Source: a virus
Virus record (IMG/VR): IMGVR_UViG_3300028608_000006
Location: 124,001 to 188,000 of that record
Strand: one strand, 5' to 3'
DNA length: 64,000 bases
Part shown: one piece after another, positions 25,096-64,000 of the stretch
Position numbering within the stretch: position 1 is the first letter of the stretch
Layout: every line of letters starts with the position of its first letter
Made by a program: the position numbers and the translations under genes
Notes under the pieces: generated by a model
Seen by the model: the letters and a program-made list of their open reading frames with translations, nothing else
What the model was told of the DNA's origin: nothing
The model's database searches: none

Positions 25096-25116
25096 AATTT
25101 ACTCATGAGGTTTACG

Positions 25117-37207: not shown

Positions 37208-37282
37208 TAAGCCCAACTTTTCACCGGACACTAACAGCAAGTATTCAGCCTACTGTTAGTTGGCCGTAGTCAGTCGGGCTTA
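37208..37282 (-). other. structured 3' leader-out region of the capsid message
   Basis: TAAGCCC at 37208-37214 pairs with GGGCTTA at 37276-37282, which includes the capsid stop codon. Inside it ACTAACAG at 37230-37237 pairs with CTGTTAGT at 37253-37260. The nested stems lie between the stop codon and the terminator, and may protect the abundant message from 3' decay. Confidence 0.4.
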
Positions 37283-39472: not shown

Positions 39473-39501
39473 GGATTAAAGTCCTGTGAGTTGAGCTTTT
39501 T

Positions 39502-39519
39502 AAACAAATATATTTGTTT
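39502..39519 (-). promoter_or_regulatory. 18-bp AT-rich palindrome upstream of the capsid gene
   Basis: AAACAAATATATTTGTTT is a perfect palindrome 30 bp before the capsid ATG, in an 83-bp gap. It may be the core of a strong late promoter or a site for a dimeric regulator. The minus strand also reads AACA then six bases then TT, the pattern I recall for late promoters of the giant phage AR9, but so short a match can be chance. Confidence 0.35.
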
Positions 39520-39555
39520 GCGCAAGTTGAGCTGCACATAAAATATGTAAGAGTG

Positions 39556-47953: not shown

Positions 47954-48682
47954 TTAACCGGCTTTGTCTTTATCACTGGCATCGAGAAGGCGATAGCGTA
48001 CGAACCACAGACGATCATCGGGAGTCCTGAAGACAGCGAGATCGGAAACCCCGTCGTTCATCAGGTCAACCACTTCGGCTTCCAGCATGTCCGCCACCGA
48101 AGGAGCGCACTCGATCGTGTGGTGAATCAGCTCAGCGGCCAAAGATTGAACGAAGCCCTTTCCCAGACCACCACCGCCAACCACGATCACGTCGTAAGCC
48201 GGGAAGACCTTGCTGACCAAAGCCAGTTGAGCCTTCTGTTCACCCAACGAGCAGCACACGGCGATCTTCGGACGATCGAACTTGGCCTTGTCCTTCACGG
48301 TGATGGCGAGAGAGCCTTTAACGTGGATGGACGTCTCGAGGATGTAAACCCCGGAAGAGAGTGTCCCCTCAACACCGAACCGCACAGTACCCTCATCGGC
48401 CTCGTAATCAACGCCAGGGGTCAGATACAAACGGTACTTAGCGGAAACAGCCGCCATCACGTCTTCCCAGCTGTCGCCTTCGCTTGCCATGACTTCAGCA
48501 CGCTGACCAGACAGGTAACGAGTGACGTCAACCTTTGGCATGGTAACCCGTTTGGTTTCCTCACCGATCTGGACAACGAAGACTGCCTTCTCTGGAGACT
48601 CAGCAGCGCCGGACTGAATGACCGCGCCAACCGGCAAACTTGCAAGCACAAGTTCCAGCACGCGAGGATTAACGTTACTCAT
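47954..48682 (-). CDS. unknown (242 aa), end of head-protein operon
   Basis: 242 aa, not recognised. The N-terminal half is beta-rich with many Val and Gly. The middle has SKVFPAYDVIVVGGGGLGKGF, which looks like a glycine loop after a strand but lacks the lysine-Ser/Thr pattern of a P-loop. Cysteines are at AVCCSLG. It overlaps the 469-aa gene by 8 bases. As last gene before a terminator in the head cluster it is likely late-expressed. Confidence 0.55.
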   Translation of the reverse strand: MSNVNPRVLELVLASLPVGAVIQSGAAESPEKAVFVVQIGEETKRVTMPKVDVTRYLSGQRAEVMASEGDSWEDVMAAVSAKYRLYLTPGVDYEADEGTVRFGVEGTLSSGVYILETSIHVKGSLAITVKDKAKFDRPKIAVCCSLGEQKAQLALVSKVFPAYDVIVVGGGGLGKGFVQSLAAELIHHTIECAPSVADMLEAEVVDLMNDGVSDLAVFRTPDDRLWFVRYRLLDASDKDKAG

Positions 48683-50084
48683 CCTTCTTCCCCTTCTTAT
48701 CGGTATCAGCGATGAAGATCTTTGGACTGATACCGGAGATAGCCTTTTGGATACCGGCCATCAGTTTGGTGTGAGCAGCCAGTTCGAACTTAACGTCCTT
48801 CAGCTTCTCTTTACCGGTTTTGACCTTGTCTTGGACTTTGGCCTTTTTAGCCTTCGCCACGTCCTTGTTGCTTTCGTCACCGGTGGTATCGCTGGACGCG
48901 GTCTTGATCTCAGCCACAGCCTTTTGAGCGTCGGTGATCTCAGCGTTCAGTTTACCGCCAGACGTAGCCTCTTTGGACATGAACCCCATCAGGGCGTCGA
49001 TGACCTTAGGGGCGTCGCTTGGGGTACGCAGCTGACTGACCAACCCTTTCAGCTTACCCGAAGGATCAACTTCAGCCATCAGGTTGGTAATACCTTCCCG
49101 GGCTTTGTCGTTGATCACCGCGGCCGTGTCCTTCATCGACTGCAAGGCCTTCTTGTTGTTATCAGCCATCAACTCAGCCGACTTAACCTTTTCTTCAGGC
49201 TTGCTGGTGGTGAAGAGGTCTTTGATAGCACCCAAGGATGCTGTCAGTGCGCTCCAAGCTTTCTCGCCCATGTCTTTGATCGCGTCAAAGATAGGACCTT
49301 CCTGACCGGCATAACCTTCCAGACGAATGTTGTTAGCATTCGCCACGCCAATGAAGTATTCCTTAGCAGGACTCTCGGTCCCGTTCAGGAAGTGCTCCAT
49401 CCCCTCGATAATCATGAGGGGGTGTTCCAGCGCGCAGCCGCACAGACAGTCGGTGTCTTTACGACATTCCAACCCGTCCACATCGAAGTCAGGATCAGGG
49501 ATCTCTTCCAGATCATCGGGGTCAACCTCTGGGTACTCTGGCAACCCAGCCTCGGCGCCGATCCGGCAGGCCACGAAGCAATCCGTCAATTCAAAGACCT
49601 TTTGAATGTACTCGAGTTGGCGGACATAACCACGCAGGATGGCAACCGGGAACTCTTCCTCCCCGGCATTAAGCTGTGCCAGTTTACCCAGATTGAAACG
49701 CACGTCATCCATGAAGAGTGCGAGCGAACTGGTCTGGTCCATGGGACCGCCTTTGTTCCCCATTCCACTGATGGTCATCGCCAATGTCGTTGGGCGTTCG
49801 TAGTAAGCGTTATGCATGTCATTAAAGACATCTAAGAGGTAAAGGTTCAGCGCACTGTTAACCTTCATCTCCGCCGCATCGTAATACGAGAAGTTCTTCT
49901 CGATACAAGCCAGAACATTGTTGAGAAGCGAGCGAACCTTCTTCTCATCCATAGGCTCGTCACCACTGTAACTACCCAGAGACTCGATGATCCGTTTCAG
50001 GATCGGGTGATCGTCCTTGGAGAACTCGAACATCTTGGTGATCAACATCATCCCCAAGAGAGACAACTGGAGGTAAAGACTCAT
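48675..50084 (-). CDS. internal head protein candidate with GQE processing site (469 aa)
   Basis: 469 aa. The N-terminal part (1-250) is helical and contains a cysteine-rich acidic patch (DVDGLECRKDTDCLCGCALEH). At 258-263 it has YAGQE then G, followed by PIFDAIKDMGEKAWSALTAS. This is the Gly-x-Glu plus Gly pattern and amphipathic helix shared with five other proteins in this region. Removal of the first 262 residues by the prohead protease would leave a Lys/Ala-rich helical protein of about 207 residues. It ends in a basic tail (DTDKKGKKDE). The role is inferred from phiKZ inner-body proteins. Confidence 0.5.
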   Translation of the reverse strand: MSLYLQLSLLGMMLITKMFEFSKDDHPILKRIIESLGSYSGDEPMDEKKVRSLLNNVLACIEKNFSYYDAAEMKVNSALNLYLLDVFNDMHNAYYERPTTLAMTISGMGNKGGPMDQTSSLALFMDDVRFNLGKLAQLNAGEEEFPVAILRGYVRQLEYIQKVFELTDCFVACRIGAEAGLPEYPEVDPDDLEEIPDPDFDVDGLECRKDTDCLCGCALEHPLMIIEGMEHFLNGTESPAKEYFIGVANANNIRLEGYAGQEGPIFDAIKDMGEKAWSALTASLGAIKDLFTTSKPEEKVKSAELMADNNKKALQSMKDTAAVINDKAREGITNLMAEVDPSGKLKGLVSQLRTPSDAPKVIDALMGFMSKEATSGGKLNAEITDAQKAVAEIKTASSDTTGDESNKDVAKAKKAKVQDKVKTGKEKLKDVKFELAAHTKLMAGIQKAISGISPKIFIADTDKKGKKDE

Positions 50085-50095
50085 GCCGAGGCTCC

Positions 50096-50584
50096 CTATT
50101 TGATTTTGACTTGAACTGTGCCTTTAAAGAGCACAGCGTTGCGAGCGTCGATGGTCATGTAGTCCTCAAACGAGCTGAGATCCACTTCGCTGAGCGACAG
50201 GCCGTTCAGACCTACCACGCGCTTCCACTGCGAGAACAACAGCCCCAGCGAGTCCCCAGGGCTCAGCTGGTCGGCCTCCTGAGCGATAACCGGATACTCT
50301 TGGGTCAGCAGGTCGATGCTCAGTTTTTCATTCAAAGCGTCAGGAGTGGTGAGTGAGTCCTTGAACTCAAAGCCGGTAATGTCCTGAGGGATGGTTGCGA
50401 ACAACTCGCCCAAGTCCACACGCTCAACCAACACAGCGTTCAGAGCATCGCCGCTCACAGCGTACTTGAACGACTTATCGTTGATCGGGTGAACCGTGCC
50501 GAAGCGAGGGTTCAGGTTAGTCAAGCCAGCCTGATGAACGGCCGACGAAACAATGACCGTTTGGTTAAACAGATTAAGCCGCAT
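50096..50584 (-). CDS. unknown small head-region protein with repeated D-A-x-N-A-V-L (162 aa)
   Basis: 162 aa, not recognised. Two related stretches occur: GDALNAVLVERVDLG near 45 and DARNAVLFKGTVQVK near the C-terminus. Both have Asp-Ala-x-Asn-Ala-Val-Leu then strands, suggesting a duplicated or strand-swapped fold. No Gly-x-Glu site of the family type is present. It overlaps the 352-aa gene by 11 bases and precedes the 469-aa gene by 11 bp, so it is made together with internal head proteins. Confidence 0.55.
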   Translation of the reverse strand: MRLNLFNQTVIVSSAVHQAGLTNLNPRFGTVHPINDKSFKYAVSGDALNAVLVERVDLGELFATIPQDITGFEFKDSLTTPDALNEKLSIDLLTQEYPVIAQEADQLSPGDSLGLLFSQWKRVVGLNGLSLSEVDLSSFEDYMTIDARNAVLFKGTVQVKIK

Positions 50585-51632
50585 GAGACTTACCCTTGTT
50601 GACAGTGGCGTTCAGGATGGACAACGAAGCGAAAAGACCTTTGAAGATGGTCAGCTCCAGCAACTTAATGTTGGCCATGCCGTTACGCATGATGGTTTGA
50701 AGGTCACTGATCGTGCTAACGTAGTGAGAGTTCTTGTCGGAGTCAGCCTTCTTGGTCTTCTCCAGCTCTTTGTTCAGAGCCTTAATGAAATCCTTTTCCA
50801 GCTTGACGGTGAACTCCATCAGGTCATCAGCGTTGTTCATCAACGCCTTGTGTTCCTTGAACAACCGCAAGACTTCCGTTTGGTTGGTACGGAAGGTTGG
50901 GTTTTTAGACTGGTTAGGTGGGGACGGTACTTCGTGCAACTTACCGTTCTGATCCATCTTGAAGTCGTGGGAAGCAAAGAACGGAGTGGAGACGTTGAAC
51001 CCTTTAATGCTCAGAGTCCCCATCCCCAAAGAGACAATCTTGTTGATCGTTTCTTTGAGTTGTGCAGGACCGTTGTTGGTAGGGGCGGTCATGTCGGTCA
51101 GAGACTTACACGCACCCTGAAGGATACCGACGTACAGAGCCACGCGCTTCATGGCTTCACCGCAATCGTGGAACGCCGAGGACATCCAAGACAGACTAGC
51201 TTCCGGTTTGGTCAGCTTATCGTAGATGTCCATGTAGTCGAGGGGATAATGGATCTCCCCGGTGTTGATGCCGTTCTTCTCGATGTCGAGTTCCAGGGAC
51301 TTGGTCTTGCGGCTGACCGCTTCTTTCTTACCGGTAAAGAAAGAGAACAGCCACTTGAAGAAATCTTTGACGGCCTGGATAACAACCTCAACGCCCTTCT
51401 TAACTTTGTCGAGGAAACCCTCGTTGCCCGATACAACAGAAACTTCTGGCAGGGAGACGTGAGAGAAGATCGCTTGATAGAACTCTTCGTTACCACTTAC
51501 GCGGTCGTACTCTTTGGAGAGTTCAAACTTGGTGTCTTCGTCGATCACATCGCTGTAACCTTTTTGGTCCGCGTTGTATTCTTCCAACAACGTCGGGGTG
51601 TTGATAAAACGTGGACTATCAGTAATGGACAT
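50574..51632 (-). CDS. internal head protein candidate with two GNE sites (352 aa)
   Basis: 352 aa. The N-terminal part contains two copies of a site, VSGNE then EF at 46-51 and VSGNE then GF at 67-73. The second leads into an amphipathic, aromatic-rich helix (LDKVKKGVEVVIQAVKDFFK and then WLFSFF). The rest is mostly helical. Loss of the first 71 residues would follow the processing pattern of phiKZ inner-body proteins. The doubled site is uncommon in the set. A strong hairpin lies between this gene and the upstream 415-aa gene. Confidence 0.55.
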   Translation of the reverse strand: MSITDSPRFINTPTLLEEYNADQKGYSDVIDEDTKFELSKEYDRVSGNEEFYQAIFSHVSLPEVSVVSGNEGFLDKVKKGVEVVIQAVKDFFKWLFSFFTGKKEAVSRKTKSLELDIEKNGINTGEIHYPLDYMDIYDKLTKPEASLSWMSSAFHDCGEAMKRVALYVGILQGACKSLTDMTAPTNNGPAQLKETINKIVSLGMGTLSIKGFNVSTPFFASHDFKMDQNGKLHEVPSPPNQSKNPTFRTNQTEVLRLFKEHKALMNNADDLMEFTVKLEKDFIKALNKELEKTKKADSDKNSHYVSTISDLQTIMRNGMANIKLLELTIFKGLFASLSILNATVNKGKSHAA

Positions 51633-51693
51633 AAGGAAGCCCCTTGTCAGTGGTTAATAGAACGTGCCTATAGCATCCCCTAAATATCAAAAT

Positions 51694-51735
51694 GCAGACA
51701 TAAGGCTATCGCCCGGGATTGCCCCGGGCGATAGC
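51694..51735 (-). terminator. 13-bp hairpin with TTATGTCTGC tail
   Basis: 51705-51717 pairs perfectly with 51723-51735 around a 5-base loop. On the minus strand TTATGTCTGC (reverse complement at 51694-51703) and ATTTTGA follow. It ends the unit of the 415-aa gene. Confidence 0.8.
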
Positions 51736-51766
51736 ACTCATTTACGTCGTGCGCTAACCGCGAGGG

Positions 51767-53014
51767 TTAGACGTGAGCTGCAACGGCGTCCAGGGTCCAG
51801 CCGGCGCTACGGATCACTTGCTTGTTGACGGCCTGAGCGATCGACGACGAAGTCGCGAACACGGAACGTACAACCTGGATCTGAGCGTTGACTTCTTCAG
51901 CCTTTTCCTTGTCGTCCGCTTTCAGGACGTTCAGGGAGCCGATGACCTGGTCACGCTGCGACTTCGAGAAGGCAGCTGCGACTTTGTCGTTGCGGATGGC
52001 GGTAACGGTTGCTTTGACTTTGCCCAGGGCAGCAGTCAGAGCGCCTTTGTCAGCCTTGGCAGCAACTTCGCCGCTGGTCAGCTTGGAGGTGTCGCCGGTG
52101 CCGAAGAAGATCTTGATCGAGCGAGCCATTTCAGCTGCTTCTTTCAGATCTTTCGCCAGGCCGTCTTTCATCTCGGCGTGAACGCGAACGCCAGCCGACA
52201 TGCCGATCAGGGTCTTCTTGTCGCCTTCGCTCTTCTCGCCGGCGTTCACGTCGGACTTGGCGTCCTTCTTGAGTGCGGCCAGCAGGGAAGCGTAAGCGCT
52301 GTTGAAGGACGACAGATCGACCTTGGCAGCCGACTTGGCGATACCAGCGAAAGTAGCCAGGGCGCCTTTGGTGGCAGTCCAGCCTTCAGGGTCTTTGTTC
52401 AGACCGCCTTTCTCGTAGTCGAACAGGACGTTCCAGCCGCCCAGCTTGATCTTTTCCTTGACCTTCTCGGCCGCGGTGACGCGAGTGACCAGTTGGTCAT
52501 GGCGACGGCTCAGCTTTTCAGCGGCGTTGAACAGGCCGACGAAGAAGTTGATCACGGTGTTGAAGATGTGCTTGATGACTTCGATGGCTTTCTTGGCGTA
52601 ACCTTTCACGGTTTCCATGAAGCCTTCCATGCCGCTGCGAGCCATGATCTGAGCGGTGGCCGCATCGGACATGGATTCAACGCCGCAACGCTCGATGGAA
52701 GCGCCGCCCAGCTTGGTGTTCAGCTTGGCCGCACGGTTGTACATGCTGGCGAAAGCGGTGGAGTTGAACTGGCCGGAGCTGATCAGGCATTCGAGGCCTT
52801 CAACCACTTCCTGGATTTCTTCGACGGCTTCGTCCTGCTGCTTGACTTCTTCACGCAGCTCTTCGATTTCCTGGCCTTGTTGCTCCAGGACTACCTGAAC
52901 TTCGGCGACTTCAGCGCGAACCGAATCTTCAGCACCGGCTTCGATAACTACGTTGTCGGCAGCGCCGCCCATTTCCAGTTCTTCGAAACCCTTGTAGCGA
53001 TCAAGAATGTTCAT
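51767..53014 (-). CDS. internal head protein candidate with GME site (415 aa)
   Basis: 415 aa. Codon use is very regular and GC-rich, as in the capsid gene, which suggests high expression. The N-terminal 110 residues are acidic and coiled-coil-like (EQQGQEIEELREEVKQQDEA). Sites CGVE then S (111-114) and SGME then GF (127-132) precede an amphipathic helix with aromatics (METVKGYAKKAIEVIKHIFN, VINFFVGLF). The rest is Ala/Lys-rich and helical. Removal of the acidic propeptide would leave a basic protein suited to sit with DNA in the head. Its flank has two 12-bp palindromes and its own terminator. Confidence 0.6.
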   Translation of the reverse strand: MNILDRYKGFEELEMGGAADNVVIEAGAEDSVRAEVAEVQVVLEQQGQEIEELREEVKQQDEAVEEIQEVVEGLECLISSGQFNSTAFASMYNRAAKLNTKLGGASIERCGVESMSDAATAQIMARSGMEGFMETVKGYAKKAIEVIKHIFNTVINFFVGLFNAAEKLSRRHDQLVTRVTAAEKVKEKIKLGGWNVLFDYEKGGLNKDPEGWTATKGALATFAGIAKSAAKVDLSSFNSAYASLLAALKKDAKSDVNAGEKSEGDKKTLIGMSAGVRVHAEMKDGLAKDLKEAAEMARSIKIFFGTGDTSKLTSGEVAAKADKGALTAALGKVKATVTAIRNDKVAAAFSKSQRDQVIGSLNVLKADDKEKAEEVNAQIQVVRSVFATSSSIAQAVNKQVIRSAGWTLDAVAAHV

Positions 53015-53025
53015 GCGGTATATCC

Positions 53026-53060
53026 TTCGTTAACGAATTGAGTTTGGTTGTTTATAAACA
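53026..53060 (-). promoter_or_regulatory. two 12-bp palindromes upstream of the 415-aa gene
   Basis: TTCGTTAACGAA at 53026-53037 and TGTTTATAAACA at 53049-53060 are perfect palindromes in a 47-bp gap. They could mark a promoter or dimeric regulator site for a highly expressed head gene. Confidence 0.3.
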
Positions 53061-53061
53061 G

Positions 53062-54045
53062 TTAAGCGAAAACACCCAGTACACCATGAATGTACCGGTC
53101 GGTGTATCCGACCACACGCGGAGTGAATCCACTATAAAATGCAAGCGCTCCACTGTTCCCTTCCAGAAGCTTCTCAGCTTCTTTCAACGCAGACTTGCTG
53201 ACTCGGTATTCCAGCTTGGTCAAGTTCTCGTCAACACCCTTGACCATTTCGGACCAAGACTTGATGAATGCGAGGTAGCCATCGTAGGCCGCCTTGACGC
53301 GCTGGTGCAGGTTGTTCACCTTGTCCAACTTGTTCAGCAGTTCGCTGACGTTGGATTTGGAGAATGAAACATTTCCACCTTCGCCAGCAGGAGTATCCCC
53401 CGACATAGAATATTTCGGAGCATTTCCGTCTGCATTGTTGAACTCCCATTCCTTACCGCCTGGGAGAACACCCGATGCTTCGAACGCAGGGTACTTCAAC
53501 TTCTCGCACGCATCGATAACCTTAAAGACGTCATCCGTGTGTTTGGCGTCTTTCAGTTTCCGCACGGCAATCAGCTGGGCGTCGAGGTGATCCAGGACGG
53601 CCTTGCTGTGTTTGTCCAGAAGCTCTAGGTGAGCGATGAGAGTGTCCATGTCGTGAGAGATGGTACTCGGGTCGCCCTTGGAGGTGATCATCGCTACCTG
53701 AGTCGCTGTGAGCTTCAGGTTGTGCTCGTCTTCTTTCGCCGTCGCCGCCAGCAAGCGCTTGATGTAAGACTTGTTGTCGTCGAAAGCTTTAGACAGCTGG
53801 TTACCCGCAGCGCTAATGCCAGCAGTAAAGGCACTCAGTGCTTTACCACCGACCCACATCGTGACGCTCAACAACCCTGTTCCGAGTTGCTGCATGCTGT
53901 CACCGAAGGCTTCGTTCCCCGCTACAGAATAGGGATCGGTTGCCATCAGCTGACCCAGCAGGTTCAGATCGTGGTTCGCTTGCATCAGCTTGATGTGCTG
54001 TTCCAGACCCGATGTGAGGTCCTGTTGAAGCTGTGACATATCCAC
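53062..54045 (-). CDS. internal head protein candidate with GNE site (327 aa)
   Basis: 327 aa. SVAGNE then AF at 40-47 matches the presumed processing site of the family, followed by a hydrophobic amphipathic part (LGTGLLSVTMWVGGKALSAF). Most of the rest is helical, rich in Lys, Asp and Leu. Cleavage at E45 would remove a short, Gln-rich N-terminal peptide. It lies between the 439-aa gene (12 bp gap) and the 415-aa gene. Role in the head is inferred from the shared motif and neighbours. Confidence 0.55.
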   Translation of the reverse strand: MDMSQLQQDLTSGLEQHIKLMQANHDLNLLGQLMATDPYSVAGNEAFGDSMQQLGTGLLSVTMWVGGKALSAFTAGISAAGNQLSKAFDDNKSYIKRLLAATAKEDEHNLKLTATQVAMITSKGDPSTISHDMDTLIAHLELLDKHSKAVLDHLDAQLIAVRKLKDAKHTDDVFKVIDACEKLKYPAFEASGVLPGGKEWEFNNADGNAPKYSMSGDTPAGEGGNVSFSKSNVSELLNKLDKVNNLHQRVKAAYDGYLAFIKSWSEMVKGVDENLTKLEYRVSKSALKEAEKLLEGNSGALAFYSGFTPRVVGYTDRYIHGVLGVFA

Positions 54046-54057
54046 CTCGTCCTTGGT

Positions 54058-55377
54058 TTAAGGCGTGTTAACCTTGATGGAAGTATGGCAGAGTTCGATC
54101 AGGCCAGCGATGATCAGAACCAGATAGCTGTTCACCGCAACGCGGATGTCCAGCAGCTCCATTTGGTTCTTCCGCACGATGGCAGAGAAAGTAACCAGGA
54201 GTTTGTGTTTCAGTTCTTCGCTGATGTCCGACTCGAAGAAGCCTTTGGTGATGTCGTCGCAATCGGCACCGGACAGCTTGAATTTCTCGCCGCCCTCGAA
54301 AACCTTGTTCCATTCCTTCAACACATCGCGCAGGTTTTTGACGACTGCTTTGATCTGTTGCGAAGACAGGGACATGATCTCCAGATCCAACTTCGAGTAC
54401 ATCAGCGGGGCCGTGTTGTCGAAGAAGGTTGTGTCGATGTCGATATAACGCTGAACGAAGTCTTCAGCCGCACCCAGGGACTTGTTGTTCCGGCCGTTGT
54501 CGTTCTGGCGAACGTCTACGAAGTAGGCACCACCCATCAGTTCAACGGATTGCTTGGCAGTGATGCCACCGGTCGAATGCTGAGGGCACGGGTAGGTGCA
54601 TTCCTTGAAGCGTTCCGAAGGAATGGAGATCGGCAACAGCGCAAAACGCTCTTCAGCTTGGGCTTGGCTCAGACCAGAGAAACCGCCGAAGAAGGCCAGC
54701 GTCGAGTTGAGGCTGTTGCGGTTGTTGAGGTAGTAGTTCTGGCTCAAGCCGGACAGGGAGCGGCTCAGCTTGGTCAGATCTTCAGACCAGTTCTCGCTGA
54801 CCTTGCCATTCACCTTGAACAGGTTGAACAGACGGTTGCCCAGGAGAATCTTTTCACGGTCCTTTTCGAACGGTGGGGAAGAGTTGATCGAGTTTTCCAG
54901 CAAGTCCACCGAACCAGCCAGAGAGTCCTGACTTTGGGTGAACAGGATGTAAGCCTCTTTAAAGCTAATCCCCATCTGCGAAACGATCGAACGGGACTTC
55001 TTGAAGAAATCCTCCATGAAGCTCTCACAGCCTACCAGGCGCGTGAAAAGGTAATCTTTGGGCATCAGGGTAAACCCCAGTGCTTCAGAGCCTTCTACGG
55101 CGCTCATACCGTCTGCTGGAGGGATGTCCACTTCGGAACGCGCCAGCTGGGCATCCATGACTTGTGCCAGGGTGGGAGACACTTCGTGGGCCTTGAGGGC
55201 TTGCAGGGTATCTTTCACGGACTGAACACGATCACGCGAGTTGTCCAGTTCGTTCTGGTAACGGCTGAGGTCACCCGTTTCCGTGGCGCTGGCTACGAGT
55301 TCCGCAGACGTCACCACGTTAATGGCGGCCATCTCAGCCGCCAGCTTTTCGTTTGCAAGTACCTCAGGACTAGCCAT
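54058..55377 (-). CDS. internal head protein candidate with GCE site (439 aa)
   Basis: 439 aa. The N-terminal 90 residues are acidic and Ala/Ser-rich. SAVE then G at 92-96 fits the Ser/Ala-x-Glu rule recalled for phiKZ protease, and LVGCE then SF at 114-120 fits the local Gly-x-Glu type. A helical region (FMEDFFKKSRSIVSQMG) follows. The C-terminus has a hydrophobic helix near the end (YLVLIIAGLIELC). It overlaps the 170-aa gene upstream by 8 bases. Confidence 0.55.
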   Translation of the reverse strand: MASPEVLANEKLAAEMAAINVVTSAELVASATETGDLSRYQNELDNSRDRVQSVKDTLQALKAHEVSPTLAQVMDAQLARSEVDIPPADGMSAVEGSEALGFTLMPKDYLFTRLVGCESFMEDFFKKSRSIVSQMGISFKEAYILFTQSQDSLAGSVDLLENSINSSPPFEKDREKILLGNRLFNLFKVNGKVSENWSEDLTKLSRSLSGLSQNYYLNNRNSLNSTLAFFGGFSGLSQAQAEERFALLPISIPSERFKECTYPCPQHSTGGITAKQSVELMGGAYFVDVRQNDNGRNNKSLGAAEDFVQRYIDIDTTFFDNTAPLMYSKLDLEIMSLSSQQIKAVVKNLRDVLKEWNKVFEGGEKFKLSGADCDDITKGFFESDISEELKHKLLVTFSAIVRKNQMELLDIRVAVNSYLVLIIAGLIELCHTSIKVNTP

Positions 55378-55882
55378 AGTAATTTTCCCCGCCCAGGAGT
55401 AGAAGGATACGTCCTACAGCGGCTGGACCGACGCCCGCGGCAAGACGATAAAGGTCGTAGTCTTCCAGACGGTAGCCGTCCTTCAGAAACGGTTCTGTGG
55501 TGCCAGGCCGGTGACGGGTCTGGTACGTAGCAGATCGGGCGCGGGCAGAGGCTTCAAGAGCGTGTTCTTCCATGCGCAGCGAAGTCAAGATCGTTTGGTG
55601 ACCTTGCTTGCCGTTGAGGTAATGCACGATATCGCGAATCAGGTTCGCCAGAGGCCCACGGCCGCCATCGAAGTTGATCTCGAGGAACTGAGCGAAGTTG
55701 TTACCGGTCAGGCGCTTTGCTTCCCGCAGTGTTTCCACGGCAACGTAGCCTTTGATAACCAACTCGAAGTCGTTGTAGGAATCCTGCCGCAGAAGGCGCA
55801 GGTTCCTGAACGAGCCACTCAGATCCTGATCGGACAACGACGCTTCCACGTAGCCGTTTTTGATCAGTCTGTAATCAGGCAT
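55370..55882 (-). CDS. unknown (170 aa) in head operon
   Basis: 170 aa from the ATG at 55880-55882 (GAGAAG upstream). A longer reading into the 293-aa gene is rejected. It is not recognised. Basic and mixed alpha/beta: MPDYRLIKNGYVEASLSD, then YNDFELVIKGYVAVETLREA, two similar strands (L-I-K-N-G-Y-V-E and V-I-K-G-Y-V-A-V) that may be a repeat. The end is Gly/Ala-rich (GVGPAAVGRILLLLGGENYYG). It overlaps both neighbours by 8 bases, indicating coupled translation. Confidence 0.55.
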   Translation of the reverse strand: MPDYRLIKNGYVEASLSDQDLSGSFRNLRLLRQDSYNDFELVIKGYVAVETLREAKRLTGNNFAQFLEINFDGGRGPLANLIRDIVHYLNGKQGHQTILTSLRMEEHALEASARARSATYQTRHRPGTTEPFLKDGYRLEDYDLYRLAAGVGPAAVGRILLLLGGENYYG

Positions 55883-56756
55883 ATTTCTTCTCGATCTGTT
55901 CGATGGCAACAGTGTTCTTGATGATCTCGTCTTGGTAGATTTCGATCTGACGTTCGAGCTGTGGATCTTCACCGCCACCTTTCTTGTTGATGGCTTGCGA
56001 GATCTTCATCGCGAACAGTTCGTTATCACGACGCATGTTTTCGATGCGCATGATGTTGATCTTGGCCCAGGCCAGGTGGAACCAGAACACTGGGTTGACC
56101 ATGTGCACGCCGAAGCCTTGCTTGAGCAGGTCGACCTTGGCATCGCCCTCCATGCTTTCCAGCACGTCCAGGGAGTTCTGGCTGACTTCCACATCCGGCA
56201 CGCTGTTGAGGCGCAGGAGGATGCCACGGGAGCCCTTGAGCAGCTCGACGGTCAGGGTACGGAAGAACAACTCGGTACCATTGATCCAGCGCGTGTCATA
56301 CTTCGACAGGTACTGGTCAGGCTGGATGTCCTTGTTGTTCATGGTCAGCAATACATCGAAGACCATACGCACGTACTTGATCCAGAAGGTCAGGTGCTCG
56401 ATCAGGTTGAGGATGTTCACCTGTTTAAGGGTGATCAACTTACCGTCCCAGATCTTTTCGTTGTAGCCCTTGATCAACTTGATCGTTTCAGGTACCAACG
56501 CCTGGATGCAGGCAAGACCAGCGGAAATGGTTTCCGGCAGCTCACCCATGTGCACACCATTGGCACGCAGAGCTTTTTCCAGACCCTTGGTGATGATCCA
56601 GTGGCCGGCCACGGCGCTCAGGTCCACATTGCTGTTCTTGATACGAGCAATGTTGGATTCGAGATCAGTGGCGGCAACAGTGATGTTCAGCAAGGAGGAG
56701 ATGATGTCTTCTTGCTTGAACGTCTGTACGCCAGCACTATATTCAACTGCGTTCAT
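55875..56756 (-). CDS. unknown helical protein of the head operon (293 aa)
   Basis: 293 aa, not recognised. Nearly all helical, with hydrophobic stretches (NLIEHLTFWIKYVRMVFDVLL and NPVFWFHLAWAKINIM) that are amphipathic rather than clearly membrane-spanning. The last 40 residues are a charged helix (DPQLERQIEIYQDEIIKNTV). The stop of the upstream gene is directly followed by its ATG. No Gly-x-Glu-Gly-Phe site is seen. It may be a scaffold or structural head protein by position only. Confidence 0.55.
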   Translation of the reverse strand: MNAVEYSAGVQTFKQEDIISSLLNITVAATDLESNIARIKNSNVDLSAVAGHWIITKGLEKALRANGVHMGELPETISAGLACIQALVPETIKLIKGYNEKIWDGKLITLKQVNILNLIEHLTFWIKYVRMVFDVLLTMNNKDIQPDQYLSKYDTRWINGTELFFRTLTVELLKGSRGILLRLNSVPDVEVSQNSLDVLESMEGDAKVDLLKQGFGVHMVNPVFWFHLAWAKINIMRIENMRRDNELFAMKISQAINKKGGGEDPQLERQIEIYQDEIIKNTVAIEQIEKKYA

Positions 56757-57869
56757 TTACGCACCCCCGTTCAACAGTTTGACCAGATCAGCCAGCGTGT
56801 TGCTGCCGGTGTCTTTCTTGGATTTGGACGACAGATCCTTACGGGTGTAAGTCTCCGCCATGTTCGCGCCGTGCGTGTAGAACGTGTAGATACCACGGTC
56901 TTCGTTGCACACGACGATGGTGTTGGCCTTGACCGCCGAGAAGATCGACTCACGGGACTTCGCATCGTCAAAGCGCTTACCGATATCCAGCTCGAGCTGG
57001 TTAGCAGTGTCCTTGGTGAAGACGAAGGTGTTGGCCAGGTTGTTGAAACTGACCAGACCGGTACGGATCGCCGCCATGCGGTTGCCGGTTTCGCGGTTCA
57101 GGGCTTCTTTGTAGTAGCCGGACATGTCTTCGTTCTTGAGGCGGAAGCGCTCTTTCACGATGTCCAGACCGCTGACGAATTCCGGGGAGGTGATCTCACC
57201 AGTCTTGACCATCAGCATGCGAGCCCAGAAACCGTCGTCGCCTTTGGCAGCCGAGAAGACACGAGCCAAGTCTTTCGGTTGAGTCGGAACTGGGATCTGA
57301 CGGAAGGTCAGCGGGAATTCGATCTTGGCACCGTTGTCACCGTAGATAGTCGCGTTGACTACCTTGCCGATGGCCAGCGGAGCGAACTCGTGGATGTCCG
57401 GGAAGGTCTTGCCGCCAACCTGTACATAGTTGGTCTTGCCTTCGTCGTCGTCCTTCTTGTCGTCTTCATTGCCGACGATGTTGTCGTTCAACGCCTCAGC
57501 ACCCAGGATCGACAGCATGCCGCCGCGATTTGGGTTGATGGTGCCGACGATGTCACGGACCTTGACACCCATGCCAGCAGAGTTCTGCAAAGCCAGGTGA
57601 GTCAGGGTGGCCACGACGTCACGCAACATGATGATTTGGATCAAGTCGGACATGAATTCTTGGTGCAGCAGCGAGCCTTCAATCACGCACATTGGGGCAA
57701 TGATTGCTTGGTTCGCGGACTGTGTCACCGACGTGGTGGAAACCACATTGTATGAATGTTTTGCCCGCTCGGCTACCTGAGCAGCCGACCCGATATCTTT
57801 GCTGTCTGGGTAGATCTTAGACGCGAAGTCGAGAAAGAACGACCCCAGATTAAGTACACTTCCGATCAT
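56757..57869 (-). CDS. unknown probable virion protein (370 aa)
   Basis: 370 aa, not recognised. It is the first gene of the minus-strand head operon, with GAGAGG before the ATG. The N-terminal half is helical and Ala/Val-rich. An acidic loop (GNEDDKKDDDEGKT, near 130-145) divides it from a beta-rich part (TIYGDNGAKIEFPLTFRQI), and the end is basic (KDLSSKSKKDTGSN). It diverges from the gene at 57897 across 27 bp. Structural role is inferred from the operon. Confidence 0.55.
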   Translation of the reverse strand: MIGSVLNLGSFFLDFASKIYPDSKDIGSAAQVAERAKHSYNVVSTTSVTQSANQAIIAPMCVIEGSLLHQEFMSDLIQIIMLRDVVATLTHLALQNSAGMGVKVRDIVGTINPNRGGMLSILGAEALNDNIVGNEDDKKDDDEGKTNYVQVGGKTFPDIHEFAPLAIGKVVNATIYGDNGAKIEFPLTFRQIPVPTQPKDLARVFSAAKGDDGFWARMLMVKTGEITSPEFVSGLDIVKERFRLKNEDMSGYYKEALNRETGNRMAAIRTGLVSFNNLANTFVFTKDTANQLELDIGKRFDDAKSRESIFSAVKANTIVVCNEDRGIYTFYTHGANMAETYTRKDLSSKSKKDTGSNTLADLVKLLNGGA

Positions 57870-57896
57870 GTTAACCTCTCCAAGAAGGAATAATTT

Positions 57897-58970
57897 ATGG
57901 CTGATAGCCCAAGTTCTAATGAGGGATGGTTTGACGGGACACCAGGAAACGAGAAACCTACTGTCGCGCTTGATTCACATAGCGTCCCCGAATACCTAGA
58001 TTATGCGTTCAGAGAAAATGGTGGACCTGGTTACCAGAGTGCGTTGGTTAACATGCTCCGAGGCATCAGAATTCTCGGTCCAGGGAACCAGCTAGCGCCC
58101 ATCCCCGACGACACCATAGGATTAGCGTTTGTTAGCCGTCCGATGTTGAACCTGTCTGACGAAAACGTCATTAAACACCCGCAGTTGGCTCCTTTGTACA
58201 AGCCTCAGAAAAACACGCTGATGGCTTACATTAAAGGTTTGCTGGATCCGACGTGGGGACGTGGTAACAGTGGGCTCACCGACATCCTTGATCCGTTGTA
58301 TCCCTGGATCCCACCGTGCTCCAACTTCCTCAAGGTTAGCTCGGGCTTTCCTGACCTGCAATTGACCATGGGTAAGTCGACTCCTGGTTTCCGTAAAGAA
58401 GTTTACCAGTACGTGAACAGCGTGCTTAAAGTGAACTACGATTACGACATGCGTCAGTCCTACCACACGTCCAAGCCTAGCGTGCTTCCTTATATGTTTG
58501 AAGCTTGGGTCCACTACATCGAAGCGGTGAAGTTGGGCGATGAAGGGATGGAGCCTTATCCCGAGGCATTGATCGAGAACTACGTCGATTACGACTGCCG
58601 CATCTACCACATGATCTTGAACAAGGACATGCGGAGTATCGAGTGGTTGTTCTGTAGCGGTAGTTCCGTGCCTACGACGTTCCCATCGGGTGCCTTCAGT
58701 ACCATCGACCGGACACAGAATACGTTGCGTGGTCAAGGGCAGGATGAGCTGGAGATTAACTTCTCCTCCGTGGGATTCCGTTTCGGTAACATTCAAATTG
58801 CCGACATGTTCAACCGCACCACCGTCAAGTTCAACCCAGGTATGTTGCCTGCGGTGCGTGAGCAAAATTACCGTCTGTTGTCCATGTCCGAGTATTTCTC
58901 TGGTGGGTATGAAGTGTACCCGTGGATCAACATTGACACCATGAAGTTAGAATACTGGAGTCGGCTCTAA
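57897..58970 (+). CDS. unknown virion structural protein (357 aa)
   Basis: 357 aa, not recognised. Rich in Pro, Tyr, Trp and Asn, with few lysines (LYPWIPPCSNFLKVSSGFPD, EYFSGGYEVYPWINID), as in baseplate or neck proteins. AAGGA precedes the ATG. Its stop overlaps the start of the 975-aa gene by one base (TAATG), so both are made together, probably for the same part of the particle. Confidence 0.6.
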   Translation: MADSPSSNEGWFDGTPGNEKPTVALDSHSVPEYLDYAFRENGGPGYQSALVNMLRGIRILGPGNQLAPIPDDTIGLAFVSRPMLNLSDENVIKHPQLAPLYKPQKNTLMAYIKGLLDPTWGRGNSGLTDILDPLYPWIPPCSNFLKVSSGFPDLQLTMGKSTPGFRKEVYQYVNSVLKVNYDYDMRQSYHTSKPSVLPYMFEAWVHYIEAVKLGDEGMEPYPEALIENYVDYDCRIYHMILNKDMRSIEWLFCSGSSVPTTFPSGAFSTIDRTQNTLRGQGQDELEINFSSVGFRFGNIQIADMFNRTTVKFNPGMLPAVREQNYRLLSMSEYFSGGYEVYPWINIDTMKLEYWSRL

Positions 58971-61897
58971 TGGCTATGTCCCAAGATGACCTGGAACGGT
59001 TGGCGAATAACCCACAGCGTGGGATCAACCTGATCATTGACGAAGTCGAACGCAACTGGTTTAACGGCACCGTCAAGCTGAACAGCAAAGCTCACCCCGC
59101 TGTACTCTGCATGGACCTGATCCTGGGTACCTCGCATGGCTTCCTGAACCGTTTGAGTGATGCCACCAGTAAGGTGGCCTTGAAGCACGCTCGTAACGTC
59201 AGCGACCTCAGCCGCAACATGGGTGACGACGAACGCTTTGGTCTGTTCGCCATGCCGTCGGAATCCACCATGCAGTGGGCGATCTCCGAAGATGCTTTCA
59301 AAGAGATCTCGAAAGAAGTCACGGTCGTTCAGGGTAAGACCACCTTTACCTACCAAGCGATCCTGATTCCTAAGGACTCGACCTTCGACGTTAACGGTTA
59401 TTCCTTTGCTGTTAACAACGGTGTTGAAATCCGCTGGAGTGAGAAGGCTGGTTGGCAGGCTGTGTACGACGAGCAGACCAATAACCCGTTCCAACCGATC
59501 GGCACTAACCTGATCGACAAGGACAAGAAGATTGTTAACGGTACGGTTTACCGACTGTTCAACATTCCGGTGACTCAGCTGGCTATTAAGTCGGTCGAGA
59601 ACATCACGTCCAACGAAGGCTCGGGTTGCCGCGGCACTGTTGAGTATCCGGACTACCTGTTCGGTGTGCGTGCGTTCTTGGTCAAGGACAACGTCCTGAA
59701 GGAGATTGCGGTCAGTTACGATCAGGATGTATTCGATCCACTGACGGTGACGCTGGCGCTGGACATCGACACAGTGAACAACCTGTTCAACTACGAGATC
59801 CCGGACGTCTACATCACCAACAAGCTGGGTACGGGCTCCATTCGCATTTACGCTTACACCACCAAAGGGGAACTGACCAAGAACCTCACCCTGACCCCTT
59901 CGCAGGTGATCATCCCGAACTACCAGGACTTCCGTTACGGTGCAGGTAAGCTGGGTGATACCTCGGCCATGCTGCGTAACGCCAAGGGTGCTGCGTGGGC
60001 CATGACCACGGTTACCACTGGTGGTAGCAACCCGATCCCGTTCAACCAGATGAAGCAAGCCCTCATCGATGATCGTCGTCAACGTAACACCCCGATTACT
60101 CAGAGCAACCTGAAAGGCAAGGTTGAGAACTACGGTTACGGTTCTGTGAAGACCATCGACTACCTGACCGGTCGCGCATACTCCCTGAGCAAGGAACTCC
60201 CTATTCAGGACAACAAGGGCTTCTACGCTCCGATGTCTTGCTACGTGGGCAGTCACTTGGCTTCGGCGAACGATCTGGTGGGCGCAGGTGTGGTGCTGGA
60301 CAACGGTAAGCGCATTACCATCCCGCACAACGTCTTGTTCGATATCACCTCGCCTACGTCTAAGTTGGTTAACCAAATCAACAAAGATCGCTACTTGGGG
60401 ATGTCGAGTGAACAGCTGGTTGACTTGACCGCTGATAGCACTCTGGTCTACACGCCGTTCTACTACGTGCTGGACATGACCAACAACCAAGCTGTGCTGC
60501 GCACTTATCACCTTGATGCACCGGTGGTTCGTAACCAGACCTTCGTGGCGGAGAACTCTACCCTGGGCTTTGAACTGGGTGTGGGTTCGATTGCGATTGA
60601 CCACATCGACACGGGTTACCTGATCACAGTCGTGACCAAGTCTAACGATGCGTATAAACAGCTGGACAACAACCAGCTGGGTCTGCAACTGTCGATCAAC
60701 CCACAAGACTCCAGTAGCCTGGCCAGTATTGCGGGTGTGTTGGTGGGCGTGACTGAAGACAACGAACGTATTTGGGAATTCCGTATGGAGACCAAGTTCG
60801 ATGTGGACGTCAACGATATCATCTACTTCACCAACCTGCATCAGTTCGGTACGGTTCAGCCAAGCACTGGCTCGACACTGGCCATCGACATGACCTTCAT
60901 CTTCTGCTTCGTAGGGGACATGGAGTTCAGTAAGTCGGACTCTGATGCGAAGATCGATCAAACCATCTTCCCTGAAGACATGGTGGCGATCATCGAAACC
61001 AGCTACGGTATTACCTTCGGGAAACTGATGGGTAACCTGTACAGCCGGATTCGTCCGTTGGTGGGTGAGGCGCAGTACCTGCGTTACGCGGCTGACGTTC
61101 CTGAGACTTATCAGGACAACAAGCTGAAGCGTGAGAACGGTGAGTTGGTGTTCGATCCTGAAACTGGACTGCCTATCCTGGAGCACAAGATCGGGGATGT
61201 GGTGTACAACGACAATGGCACCCCTCGTCTATTGTACCGCGCTGGCGTGGACGTGGTGGTGGATGCACAAGGCAAGCCGGTTGAGGTAGCGCCTCGTGAC
61301 TTGAAGTACCATTGGGACTTCATTGCTTTCGACGGTAACTACTTCTTCTCTGACGACCCGTATGACATCCAGTTTGCTCTGGATACGAAGAACTACTTCG
61401 TTAACGTCATCACCAAAGACATGGAAGCCTTTACCTCGGAAGCGCTGGACCGTACTGACTTGTTCTACCAGCCGCGCAGTAAGCTGGGGTACCAAAAGGT
61501 TGTGGTCAACAGCAACTACGAGTCGTTCCTCAAGCAGGACCTGGAATTCACCATTACGTATTACCTGACGGCCGCTGGTTATCGCAACCAGAACCTGAAG
61601 GATGCGTTGACCGACAGCACGCCACGGGTTATCAACATGGCGCTGTACGGGGCTACCACAATCGCTATCACCAGTTTCGTTACCAGTCTGATGCAGGATG
61701 CTGGCGACCAAGTGGTGAGCGTGAAGCTGAGTGCCTTGTCGGGTGACACCACTGTTGACGTTATCAGTAACGCCGACACACTCACTGGCTTCTGCGTTCG
61801 CAAGATGCTGAAGTTGTCGGGTGATGGTGGTGTGGGTGTTAAGGAGGCGATTGACGTCATCTTCTTGCCGCACGATGCCAGTACCGCAAATATCTAA
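58970..61897 (+). CDS. large structural protein, possible baseplate wedge (975 aa)
   Basis: 975 aa. ATG at 58970, or the second ATG at 58976. Beta-rich with many Asp, Asn and Thr. It has a helical start (DDLERLANNPQRGINLIIDE), long strand repeats, and a C-terminal region with helix and strand alternation (NMALYGATTIAITSFVTSLM). Size, co-translation with the previous structural gene and its soluble character suit a gp6/J-like baseplate wedge protein. A tail-fibre-type protein is also possible. No enzyme motif is seen. The gene ends at a TTATGTTTGC hairpin. Confidence 0.5.
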   Translation: MAMSQDDLERLANNPQRGINLIIDEVERNWFNGTVKLNSKAHPAVLCMDLILGTSHGFLNRLSDATSKVALKHARNVSDLSRNMGDDERFGLFAMPSESTMQWAISEDAFKEISKEVTVVQGKTTFTYQAILIPKDSTFDVNGYSFAVNNGVEIRWSEKAGWQAVYDEQTNNPFQPIGTNLIDKDKKIVNGTVYRLFNIPVTQLAIKSVENITSNEGSGCRGTVEYPDYLFGVRAFLVKDNVLKEIAVSYDQDVFDPLTVTLALDIDTVNNLFNYEIPDVYITNKLGTGSIRIYAYTTKGELTKNLTLTPSQVIIPNYQDFRYGAGKLGDTSAMLRNAKGAAWAMTTVTTGGSNPIPFNQMKQALIDDRRQRNTPITQSNLKGKVENYGYGSVKTIDYLTGRAYSLSKELPIQDNKGFYAPMSCYVGSHLASANDLVGAGVVLDNGKRITIPHNVLFDITSPTSKLVNQINKDRYLGMSSEQLVDLTADSTLVYTPFYYVLDMTNNQAVLRTYHLDAPVVRNQTFVAENSTLGFELGVGSIAIDHIDTGYLITVVTKSNDAYKQLDNNQLGLQLSINPQDSSSLASIAGVLVGVTEDNERIWEFRMETKFDVDVNDIIYFTNLHQFGTVQPSTGSTLAIDMTFIFCFVGDMEFSKSDSDAKIDQTIFPEDMVAIIETSYGITFGKLMGNLYSRIRPLVGEAQYLRYAADVPETYQDNKLKRENGELVFDPETGLPILEHKIGDVVYNDNGTPRLLYRAGVDVVVDAQGKPVEVAPRDLKYHWDFIAFDGNYFFSDDPYDIQFALDTKNYFVNVITKDMEAFTSEALDRTDLFYQPRSKLGYQKVVVNSNYESFLKQDLEFTITYYLTAAGYRNQNLKDALTDSTPRVINMALYGATTIAITSFVTSLMQDAGDQVVSVKLSALSGDTTVDVISNADTLTGFCVRKMLKLSGDGGVGVKEAIDVIFLPHDASTANI

Positions 61898-61899
61898 AG

Positions 61900-61945
61900 G
61901 CAAACATAACCCCTACCCCAGCCAGCAACGGCGGGGTAGGGGTTA
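61900..61945. terminator. bidirectional hairpin with TTATGTTTGC flank
   Basis: A 13-bp perfect stem (61907-61919 with 61933-61945) lies between the convergent 975-aa and 238-aa genes. The minus strand reads it and then TTATGTTTGC (reverse complement at 61900-61909). Confidence 0.8.
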
Positions 61946-61958
61946 TTCACGCTTGCGC

Positions 61959-62675
61959 TCAGTCCGGATCAGTGAAGGAGTGCAGGTAGCCCGCAAACAA
62001 CAGCGAGAGTTCCATGACTGCATCCAGCGAACCAAACCGCCAGTCCACATCAGACAGGCTCACGCTGTAGGACGTCGGGAAGTTTTCCTCGATGAACTTG
62101 TCGTGAGCTTTGCCGATCAGGTCGGGGATGTTTTCCAGGAACAGGTAGTCACCGTTTTCAACGGATTCCACGGTAGTGGTCAAGTCGACCCACTTCTTTG
62201 GACCCGAAGCCAACAGCTGAGCTTTGATCTCGTACACACCCCAGTTAACGAAGTTGATGTAACGAGACACCTGAGCCTTAACAACGTTGAGCATCCGGGC
62301 CGTGTCAGGACAGTCCAGAGGGCGTGCGTTGATGTTGTCCAGGATCACCTGCACTTCGCTTTGGATGTAAACACCCATCCCGTTGAAGTACTGACGAGTC
62401 TTGTCCGTGCTGATGGAATCGCTGATGCGCTTGTCCAGCCCCATGTTGAGGATGATCTGACCATTCTCCTTAGGGAACGTGCTGTACATGCGAACCTTCA
62501 GGTCGTTCGCTTCACGGGTTGGCCAGAAGCGGTTGATGATCTCGTTGGCTTCCTTCAGGCTGACACCCTCACGAAGTTGTTCCGCCAAGGTCTTCAACGC
62601 ATCAGTATGCGCAACCATCTCTTCGCGTGCCGCATTACGGAACTCGACAAGACGATCGTAGGTAACGTCGGTCAT
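61959..62675 (-). CDS. unknown helical protein (238 aa)
   Basis: 238 aa, not recognised. It is mostly helical and charged (RLVEFRNAAREEMVAHTDALK), with a Trp/Phe-containing C-terminal part (SDVDWRFGSLDAVMELSLLF). It overlaps the upstream gene by 4 bases (ATGA). It has no Gly-x-Glu-Gly-Phe site. As partner of an internal head protein it may belong to the head, but its role is unknown. Confidence 0.55.
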   Translation of the reverse strand: MTDVTYDRLVEFRNAAREEMVAHTDALKTLAEQLREGVSLKEANEIINRFWPTREANDLKVRMYSTFPKENGQIILNMGLDKRISDSISTDKTRQYFNGMGVYIQSEVQVILDNINARPLDCPDTARMLNVVKAQVSRYINFVNWGVYEIKAQLLASGPKKWVDLTTTVESVENGDYLFLENIPDLIGKAHDKFIEENFPTSYSVSLSDVDWRFGSLDAVMELSLLFAGYLHSFTDPD

Positions 62676-64000
62676 ACCAATTTCCCCCAGCCAGTTTGTT
62701 TGGCGAAGTTGTTGAACGAGGTTTTCACGCCGGCCAAGTCTTGGACGATGATCTCGTTCACGACCTTGCTGTTGCGTTCGTAGAAGGTCTTCGCGTCTGC
62801 GTCCTTAATAACGACCAAATCGGCCTCATAAGGGTAACCTTCCACATCGGCCGACGGACTATGGCCTTTGCTGCGCGCGTCTTGGTTGATCTTGGCGATG
62901 GTGTCCATATCGTCAAGCAAGGCGTGGTAGTAGTAGGCGTGCGCACGGTTGTACCAGTCAACCAAGTTCGACGCCTGACGTTCTACCAGCATCAACGAGT
63001 TCGACACGCTGAAGCAGAACTGGGTGTAGCTCCGCACGTTGACACACAGTTGCTGATAAGCCGCCAGCAGGTGTGGTTGATTGTAGTACCCAGCGATCTG
63101 CTCGATCTTGTCCGCTTCACCGCGTTCGACGATATCACCCAGTTTCCGGAAGTCGGTCTTCTGGATGTCAACGGTGTTCTCGGTGATCTCAATGTAACGC
63201 GCATTGAGGAACTGGATCTGATTGAGCAACAGCGGAACGTCCTGCTTCTGGATCTTGACGCTTTCAGTCACCAGAGTTTCCTGGATCTTCTTGCGGCATT
63301 CGCTGAAACCGTTCTGAAGCTCTTCGTTGCTGAACTTCAGGCTGTACAGAACTTCGTACAGCTTGGAGACCTGGTCCGAGATCGCATCGACGTTGAGGGC
63401 GGTGGATACTTCCAAGATCTCTTTGAGCAGGCGGTTGATTTCAGGTGAAGTTTCTGCCGTCCGTCCCAGCGAAGGGGTGCTTGCCCGAACACGAGTCTTG
63501 GTGTACTCCTTACCGATGCTAGTCCGCAGCGCTTGGTTAGCACGGGTAATCTTGTCAGCGGACTGGTTCAGCTTAACCATGGCTTGTTGCAGCAACGGCA
63601 TGGCTTCAACCAACGAGTCGATCGTACCCTGATCGGTTTCGAACTTGCTCTTCATCAGAGTCAGTTGAGCAACCCGATCCTGGTTAGGCGGCAGGTTCAT
63701 CAGGAAGTTCTCGACGTTGTAGTCGGCTGCCGGGAAACCCAGACCGCTCAGCGTCGTAACGAATTCCTGTTTCATCTTGCCCAGGTTGTCGTTGATTTCC
63801 TTGTTGATGCGTGCGCTCTTACGGAAACCGAAGATACCCTTAACCGTATCCACCACCCAGTTCACCGCCATGCGGATATACTTGATGATGTTCTCGATGA
63901 ACTTCTTGAAACCTTCCACGATGGCGCCGAAGAAACCCTCAGCACCAACCCGGGCATTGCGCTCAGACGGGAACGGGTCGTAATGCTCGTGACCCACCAG
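62672..64000 (-). CDS. internal head protein candidate with GAE site (5' end off window)
   Basis: At least 442 codons; the frame is still open at the window edge, so the start is not visible. Near the visible N-terminus comes ARVGAE then GFF, followed by an amphipathic, aromatic-rich region (VEGFKKFIENIIKYIRMAV, VVDTVKGIFGF). This is the clearest copy of the processing-site pattern shared by proteins at 48-55 kb. The rest is a long helical chain with coiled-coil stretches. It lies about 7 kb from the others, so the family is dispersed. Confidence 0.6.
   Translation of the reverse strand: MVGHEHYDPFPSERNARVGAEGFFGAIVEGFKKFIENIIKYIRMAVNWVVDTVKGIFGFRKSARINKEINDNLGKMKQEFVTTLSGLGFPAADYNVENFLMNLPPNQDRVAQLTLMKSKFETDQGTIDSLVEAMPLLQQAMVKLNQSADKITRANQALRTSIGKEYTKTRVRASTPSLGRTAETSPEINRLLKEILEVSTALNVDAISDQVSKLYEVLYSLKFSNEELQNGFSECRKKIQETLVTESVKIQKQDVPLLLNQIQFLNARYIEITENTVDIQKTDFRKLGDIVERGEADKIEQIAGYYNQPHLLAAYQQLCVNVRSYTQFCFSVSNSLMLVERQASNLVDWYNRAHAYYYHALLDDMDTIAKINQDARSKGHSPSADVEGYPYEADLVVIKDADAKTFYERNSKVVNEIIVQDLAGVKTSFNNFAKQTGWGKLV

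Follow-up and report, generated by a model that had tools for sequence, protein, structure and literature searches.

We suggest that the front ends of ten or more of this phage's head proteins are probably cut off at sites of the form Gly-any-Glu (G-x-E), and that, judging from sequence, these sites are very likely recognised by the phage's own prohead protease of the S80 type, with enzyme and substrates having changed in step. A sequence-only reading of the DNA had described six head proteins with such sites and had taken them for prohead-protease processing sites with removable acidic propeptides, an interpretation that is well supported by the enrichment of the motif, by its conservation and by the presence of the protease. 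From the sites, their enrichment, their conservation with a free P2 residue, the homology, fold and catalytic residues of the protease and the branch-wide pattern, all of them computed, we infer the cleavage itself.

The analysed stretch of 64,000 nucleotides (the window) covers positions C1:124001-188000 of a virus contig of 231,788 bases (C1); coordinates without a prefix are window positions. Gene set and gene order of the contig match those of Pseudomonas phage EL and Erwinia phage RisingSun, which places it with the phiKZ-like jumbo phages, in the EL/RisingSun branch. Gene choice in the contig was based on homology to these two phages: 163 ORFs have a homologue in EL, RisingSun or both, with an identity of roughly 25-70% for structural genes, and homologues of their annotated genes for the nuclear shell (chimallin), PhuZ tubulin and a split RNA polymerase are found elsewhere in the contig. 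A megablast search of phage records found no match. Two short contigs from IMG/VR records with different sample numbers (IMGVR_UViG_3300028589_000476 and IMGVR_UViG_3300038441_000844) encode proteins identical or nearly so to those of this phage, and very close relatives therefore seem to be present in several samples. Long antisense ORFs at 37397-39541 (plus strand, 714 aa) and 58967-61186 (minus strand, 739 aa) overlap the capsid-protein gene and one structural gene. They appear to be artefacts of codon bias and mislead length-based gene calling.

The pattern counted was P3.E[GASN][hydrophobic], P3 lying two residues before the Glu (P1), with the expectation taken from within-protein shuffles (n=300). 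In 27 head-module proteins (chosen by genome region, with the protease and two genes for paralogues added) the Gly version occurs 26 times vs 4.7 expected (shuffle maximum 13 in 300); in 136 other proteins it is no commoner than expected (24 vs 25.2), and the placing of the portal among the latter makes the test slightly conservative. Neither the Ala version (6 vs 6.7 expected) nor the Ser version (5 vs 5.2 expected) is in excess in the 27 head proteins. Head proteins of EL and RisingSun repeat the picture, with Gly counts of 22 vs 4.7 and 21 vs 4.0 expected, respectively, and an S.E/A.E excess is likewise absent from them. The same count in control genomes gave Ala 16 vs 5.0 expected and Gly 2 for SPN3US, and Ser 16, Ala 13 and Gly 5 for phiKZ, in agreement with the published codes A-X-E and S/A/G-X-E (PMC5694885). 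Gly and Glu are common residues, and some matches are not conserved: for GTE237, near GQE262 in the 48675-50084 protein, conservation in relatives was checked and none was found. However, the size of the excess, its absence from non-head proteins and its repetition in two further phages leave next to no probability that the sites are chance matches of a loose motif.

All six sites claimed for the interval 48675-64000 are present, on the minus strand. The abundant internal head protein (phiKZ_IP; 51767..53014; PF12699, E 7e-33; phrog_5750, internal head protein) has a predicted maturation site GME130|GF (52625-52633) and further propeptide sites GVE113 (52676-52684) and GLE75 (52790-52798), with G-x-E invariant at each of the three in six sequences. 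Another internal head protein (phiKZ_IP; 54058..55377; PF12699, E 4e-27) has predicted sites GCE118|SF (55024-55032) and GSE98|AL (55084-55092), and an internal-head-type protein (50574..51632), with a weak phrog_5750 match and a profile link to the paralogue family, has GNE71|GF (51420-51428) and GNE49 (51486-51494), both conserved. The head-cluster protein at 48675..50084 (phrog_27616) would lose an acidic propeptide of 262 residues at GQE262|GP (49299-49307), which is kept in five relatives. For the virion structural protein (62672..64000 in the window, the gene running to 64201; 509 aa; phrog_14541) the predicted site is GAE88|GF (63938-63946), conserved in EL and RisingSun, with an additional GAE51 just beyond the window edge. 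The other head-cluster protein (53062..54045; phrog_15369) is the weakest of the six cases; at its predicted site, GNE45|AF (53911-53919), G-x-E is conserved and P1' is A, D or E.

The count of six proved too low, as a seventh protein in the interval had been overlooked. This candidate (56757..57869, minus strand) has the site GAE125|AL (57495-57503), which reads G[ACL]E|A in EL, RisingSun and three environmental relatives, and by gene order it is the counterpart of SPN3US gp50, a mapped protease substrate (PMC10052503). The plus-strand genes 57897-58970 and 58970-61897 inside the interval lie outside the G-x-E pattern. The description of the six proteins as otherwise dissimilar holds in part only and is too strong, because the 51767 and 54058 proteins both pass the PF12699 (phiKZ_IP) cut-off and several are paralogues: profile comparison links the 51767, 50574, 48675 and 62672 proteins mutually or to paralogues, mostly around the site, with scores to which the motif itself contributes. 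Against PF12699 the 62672-64201 protein reaches 20.3, below the cut-off of 27, and the 48675, 50574, 53062 and 56757 proteins have no match to this profile. A model of the 51767 internal head protein had no confident PDB match, and its matches in a viral library were to phage proteins only. RisingSun gp68 and gp66, orthologues of the phiKZ_IP proteins described here, were detected in lysate by mass spectrometry (PMC6034870).

Further sites, suggested in the sequence-only reading as worth seeking in the rest of the genome, were found in the capsid protein, the portal, the protease and paralogues. The major capsid protein (37280..39472, minus strand; PF25620, E 4e-136) has propeptide sites GNE37 (39362-39370) and GTE54 (39311-39319) and a likely maturation site GLE104|GF (39161-39169). 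The portal protein (25105..28194, plus strand) has a predicted propeptide of ~311 residues with sites GLE245 (25831-25839) and GTE311 (26029-26037), conserved in EL and RisingSun; its matches to PHIKZ129 (solved portal) and two other portal/virion chains (E ~1e-36) begin at residue 342, which puts GTE311 just ahead of the portal fold. Conserved G-x-E sites are also found in paralogues at C1:191997-193064, 193147-194220, 65771-66826 and 112388-113581. Each of these four dispersed paralogues, of ~350-400 residues, has one site near residue 35 and another near residue 65. Their predicted mature N-termini are strongly aromatic, and they are likely to be further inner-head proteins.

Absence of the motif from relatives, named beforehand as an observation that would speak against processing, was looked for in EL, RisingSun and environmental relatives, and the motif is conserved. 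Wherever the gene could be compared, the six sites recur at aligned positions in EL, RisingSun and three environmental relatives, with P2 free. Of the site form first described, Gly-x-Glu followed by [GAS]-F, the Gly-x-Glu part stands, while P1' and P2' are looser and Phe is not needed; P1' is occasionally acidic in the relatives' alignments (GNE|DF, GNE|EF), unlike at mapped sites. One environmental relative (L087) has ACE in place of GCE at the 54058-protein site, the sole Ala-for-Gly case, and so Gly may not be absolute. At capsid-protein sites 37, 54 and 104, Gly and Glu are each kept in 22/22 distinct sequences, with four, seven and eight different P2 residues, respectively, and at GLE207 and GSE249 of the protease they are kept in 26/26 sequences. 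P2 and P4 vary at most of these five sites, protease site 207 being less informative since its P2 is almost fixed (Leu in 25/26). Fixed P3 and P1 with a free P2 is the pattern expected from selection by a protease.

The claim that the upstream parts are acidic was borne out, with net charges of -5 to -24 for the six propeptides; those of the capsid protein and the 56757 protein are near neutral. Also confirmed was the Phe/Trp-rich stretch, F and W being enriched in the 40 residues directly after the site. An amphipathic helix, said to follow each site, is clear in the 51767, 50574 and 62672 proteins, moderate in the 54058 and 48675 proteins and absent from the 53062 protein, where the amphipathicity of the post-site segment is only at the 24th percentile. 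A model of the 51767 precursor (modest confidence) places E130 within a helix, which counts against the cleavage reading.

The protease gene, which the sequence-only reading had proposed to search for, lies in the contig outside the window (C1:29088-29936, minus strand, 282 residues) and was found with the SPN3US gp245 sequence. Its product matches Peptidase_S80 (PF20034; 216 bits, E 5e-64, cut-off 23.4) and the head maturation protease phrog_3014, and H79, S164 and D188 are conserved with SPN3US and phiKZ, S164 aligning with the SPN3US catalytic Ser, S153. T4 gp21 (5jbl) is the top PDB match of the protease model (pLDDT 73; probability 1.00, E 1.3e-3) and its only confident fold match; a profile search against PDB sequences found nothing. 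PF03420 (the T4 gp21 family) had no match in the contig or in the control genomes, which makes that search uninformative. The C-terminal tail has the conserved candidate sites GLE207|SY and GSE249|SF; self-cleavage of SPN3US gp245 was mapped at AQE-203 (PMC10052503), a few alignment columns from GLE207, and phiKZ has ALE in that stretch. Four protease positions alone fully separate the Gly branch from other phages, and only one of them, Pro171 in the loop after Ser164, is near Ser164 in sequence. This Pro, seven residues past the catalytic Ser, is invariant in 35/35 Gly-branch proteases, and the position is Asp or Glu in phiKZ, Phabio, RAY, SPN3US and Moabite. A link between Pro171 and the choice of P3 is possible and serves as a lead only, since the branch represents one evolutionary event.

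We propose that the S80 protease (phiKZ gp175-type) would enter the prohead and activate by cutting its own C-terminal tail, at GLE207|SY and/or GSE249|SF, and that it would cut after the Glu of G-x-E in the capsid protein, the portal and the internal head proteins. The N-terminal propeptides so released, most of them acidic, probably direct the proteins to the prohead core or belong to the core themselves, and the new N-terminus of several internal proteins would be an aromatic amphipathic helix. By analogy with SPN3US and T4, propeptide trimming may allow head expansion and DNA uptake. The internal proteins, once trimmed, may remain in the head, some of them probably to be ejected, as in published cases (PMC10052503, PMC5694885).

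It could be argued that G-x-E-[GS]-F is a structural element (a turn and helix cap) of the paralogous internal head proteins, unrelated to proteolysis, given the helix that follows the site in several proteins and the profile matches centred on it. However, the motif is also found in the capsid protein, the portal and the protease tail, which are not paralogues of the internal proteins, and the SPN3US homologues have mapped A-x-E cleavage sites at aligned positions, making this explanation very improbable. Another possibility, which we consider unlikely, is an enzyme as broad as phiKZ gp175 (S/A/G-x-E), with Gly dominant by inheritance of old sites and not by demand of the enzyme. It would fit with GLE163|NY in the phiKZ capsid protein, which we take to be the maturation site of that protein, with the ACE at an orthologous site in one relative and with the fact that a single branch is a single evolutionary event. 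The phiKZ and 201phi2-1 enzymes do accept Gly (PMC5694885). Such tolerance, however, should allow Gly to drift to Ala or Ser, yet 22/22 and 26/26 sequences agree at P3 while P2 and P4 vary at those sites, and A.E/S.E matches are not in excess in the head proteins of three phages. Branch-wide Gly at P3, set against Ala in SPN3US and Ser/Ala/Gly in phiKZ, argues for protease and substrates having changed together, the enzyme of this phage being one that would refuse Ala and Ser at P3.

FishSpeaker, Miami, VP4B, PS1, LAh10, SXP01, N1M2, OBP and a further contig (276,734 bases) have mainly G-x-E at the sites compared (capsid protein, protease tail and internal head proteins), with some A.E/S.E matches as well, the motif being loose and these being raw matches; Phabio and RAY have a mixed P3, and SPN3US has Ala. 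In the protease tree, 12/12 mainly-Gly phages fall on one side of a branch (support 100/99) and phiKZ, Phabio, RAY, SPN3US and Moabite on the other, SPN3US and Moabite on long branches, with P3 groups assigned by hand and that of Moabite from one site only. The Gly two before Glu is real and near-strict, but Gly there is not novel as such, as the phiKZ code already includes it: the statement that phiKZ proteins are cut after Ser/Ala-x-Glu is right for Ser and Ala and incomplete, the published codes being S/A/G-X-E for phiKZ and S/A/G/T-X-E for 201phi2-1 (PMC5694885; PMC13282480). At the level of sequence comparison, the change reads as a narrowing to near-strict Gly across the whole branch and is not private to this phage; since phiKZ uses some Gly too, an outright switch and the narrowing of a once broader code are equally likely. 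Processing after Glu with a small P3, Gly included, is already known; what appears to be new is the predicted near-strict Gly code across one protease branch, in place of Ala at SPN3US-mapped positions. The literature accessible to us, with the primary phiKZ, 201phi2-1 and EL proteome papers outside it, contained no branch-wide near-Gly-only code, and an earlier remark on EL is possible.

Shared with the phiKZ gp175 system (PMC5694885, PMC9026906, PMC13282480) are the S80 protease, a C-terminal site in it and, as predicted here, cutting after Glu, with long propeptides borne by the capsid protein, the portal and the phiKZ_IP proteins of the inner body. P1 Glu with a small P3, as in the phiKZ processing class, is found here, but its use of Ser and Ala is not, phiKZ head proteins having mainly Ser and Ala at P3 and those of this phage almost only Gly. 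SPN3US gp245 (PMC10052503) is a homologous protease with a likewise strict P3 and overlapping substrates (capsid protein, portal, gp45, gp50, gp53/54, protease); P3 is Ala there, the mark of its class, whereas here it is Gly, and more internal proteins of this phage have sites. Mapped SPN3US sites gp53 AQE-95, gp54 ARE-137 and gp45 ASE-20 align with GCE118 (54058 protein), GVE113 (51767 protein) and GNE44|F (C1:188647-190164), respectively, and the SPN3US sites of the capsid protein, portal 254, gp47 and gp50 have no exact alignment with sites here. With SPN3US identity of 17-23%, unsure around propeptides, and the other pairs inexact, these alignments are supporting evidence only. T4 gp21 shares the protease fold (5jbl) and likewise has a three-residue motif with the cut behind Glu, but its P3 is Leu or Ile, unlike in this phage, and T4 targeting propeptides are short. 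EL and RisingSun have gene order, all substrates and G-x-E sites in common with this phage. Our literature search found no mapped head-protein cleavage sites for either, and the published RisingSun lysate peptides (PMC6034870) came with no analysis of cleavage.

Whether protease mutations might alter specificity and hence the choice of processed head proteins is a question raised by the SPN3US authors (PMC5694885), and a single-residue code in a branch of many phages, beside Ala or Ser/Ala relatives, makes it testable. The sites also predict where the mature capsid, portal and inner-body proteins begin in EL, OBP and RisingSun and in jumbo phages of Vibrio, Aeromonas and Klebsiella, and such predictions are needed by structural and proteomic work. 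As a tentative and somewhat doubtful extension, phiKZ-like prohead proteases may have split into private, mutually exclusive P3 codes (Gly, Ala, Ser/Ala), each established in at least ten head proteins at once and partly insulating the head maturation of lineages in mixed infection.

Similar stretches were seen in other proteins. Two large neighbouring proteins (9563-13150 and 13217-16792, minus strand) share a conserved DG[SN]FE|G[LI]G-like stretch near residues 291-294, which EL and RisingSun have as well. The stretch is similar to S-x-E, but these products are probably not head proteins. A 2679-residue homologue annotated as tail fibre (C1:39262-47301, plus strand) contains GME787|GL and GLE822|GI.
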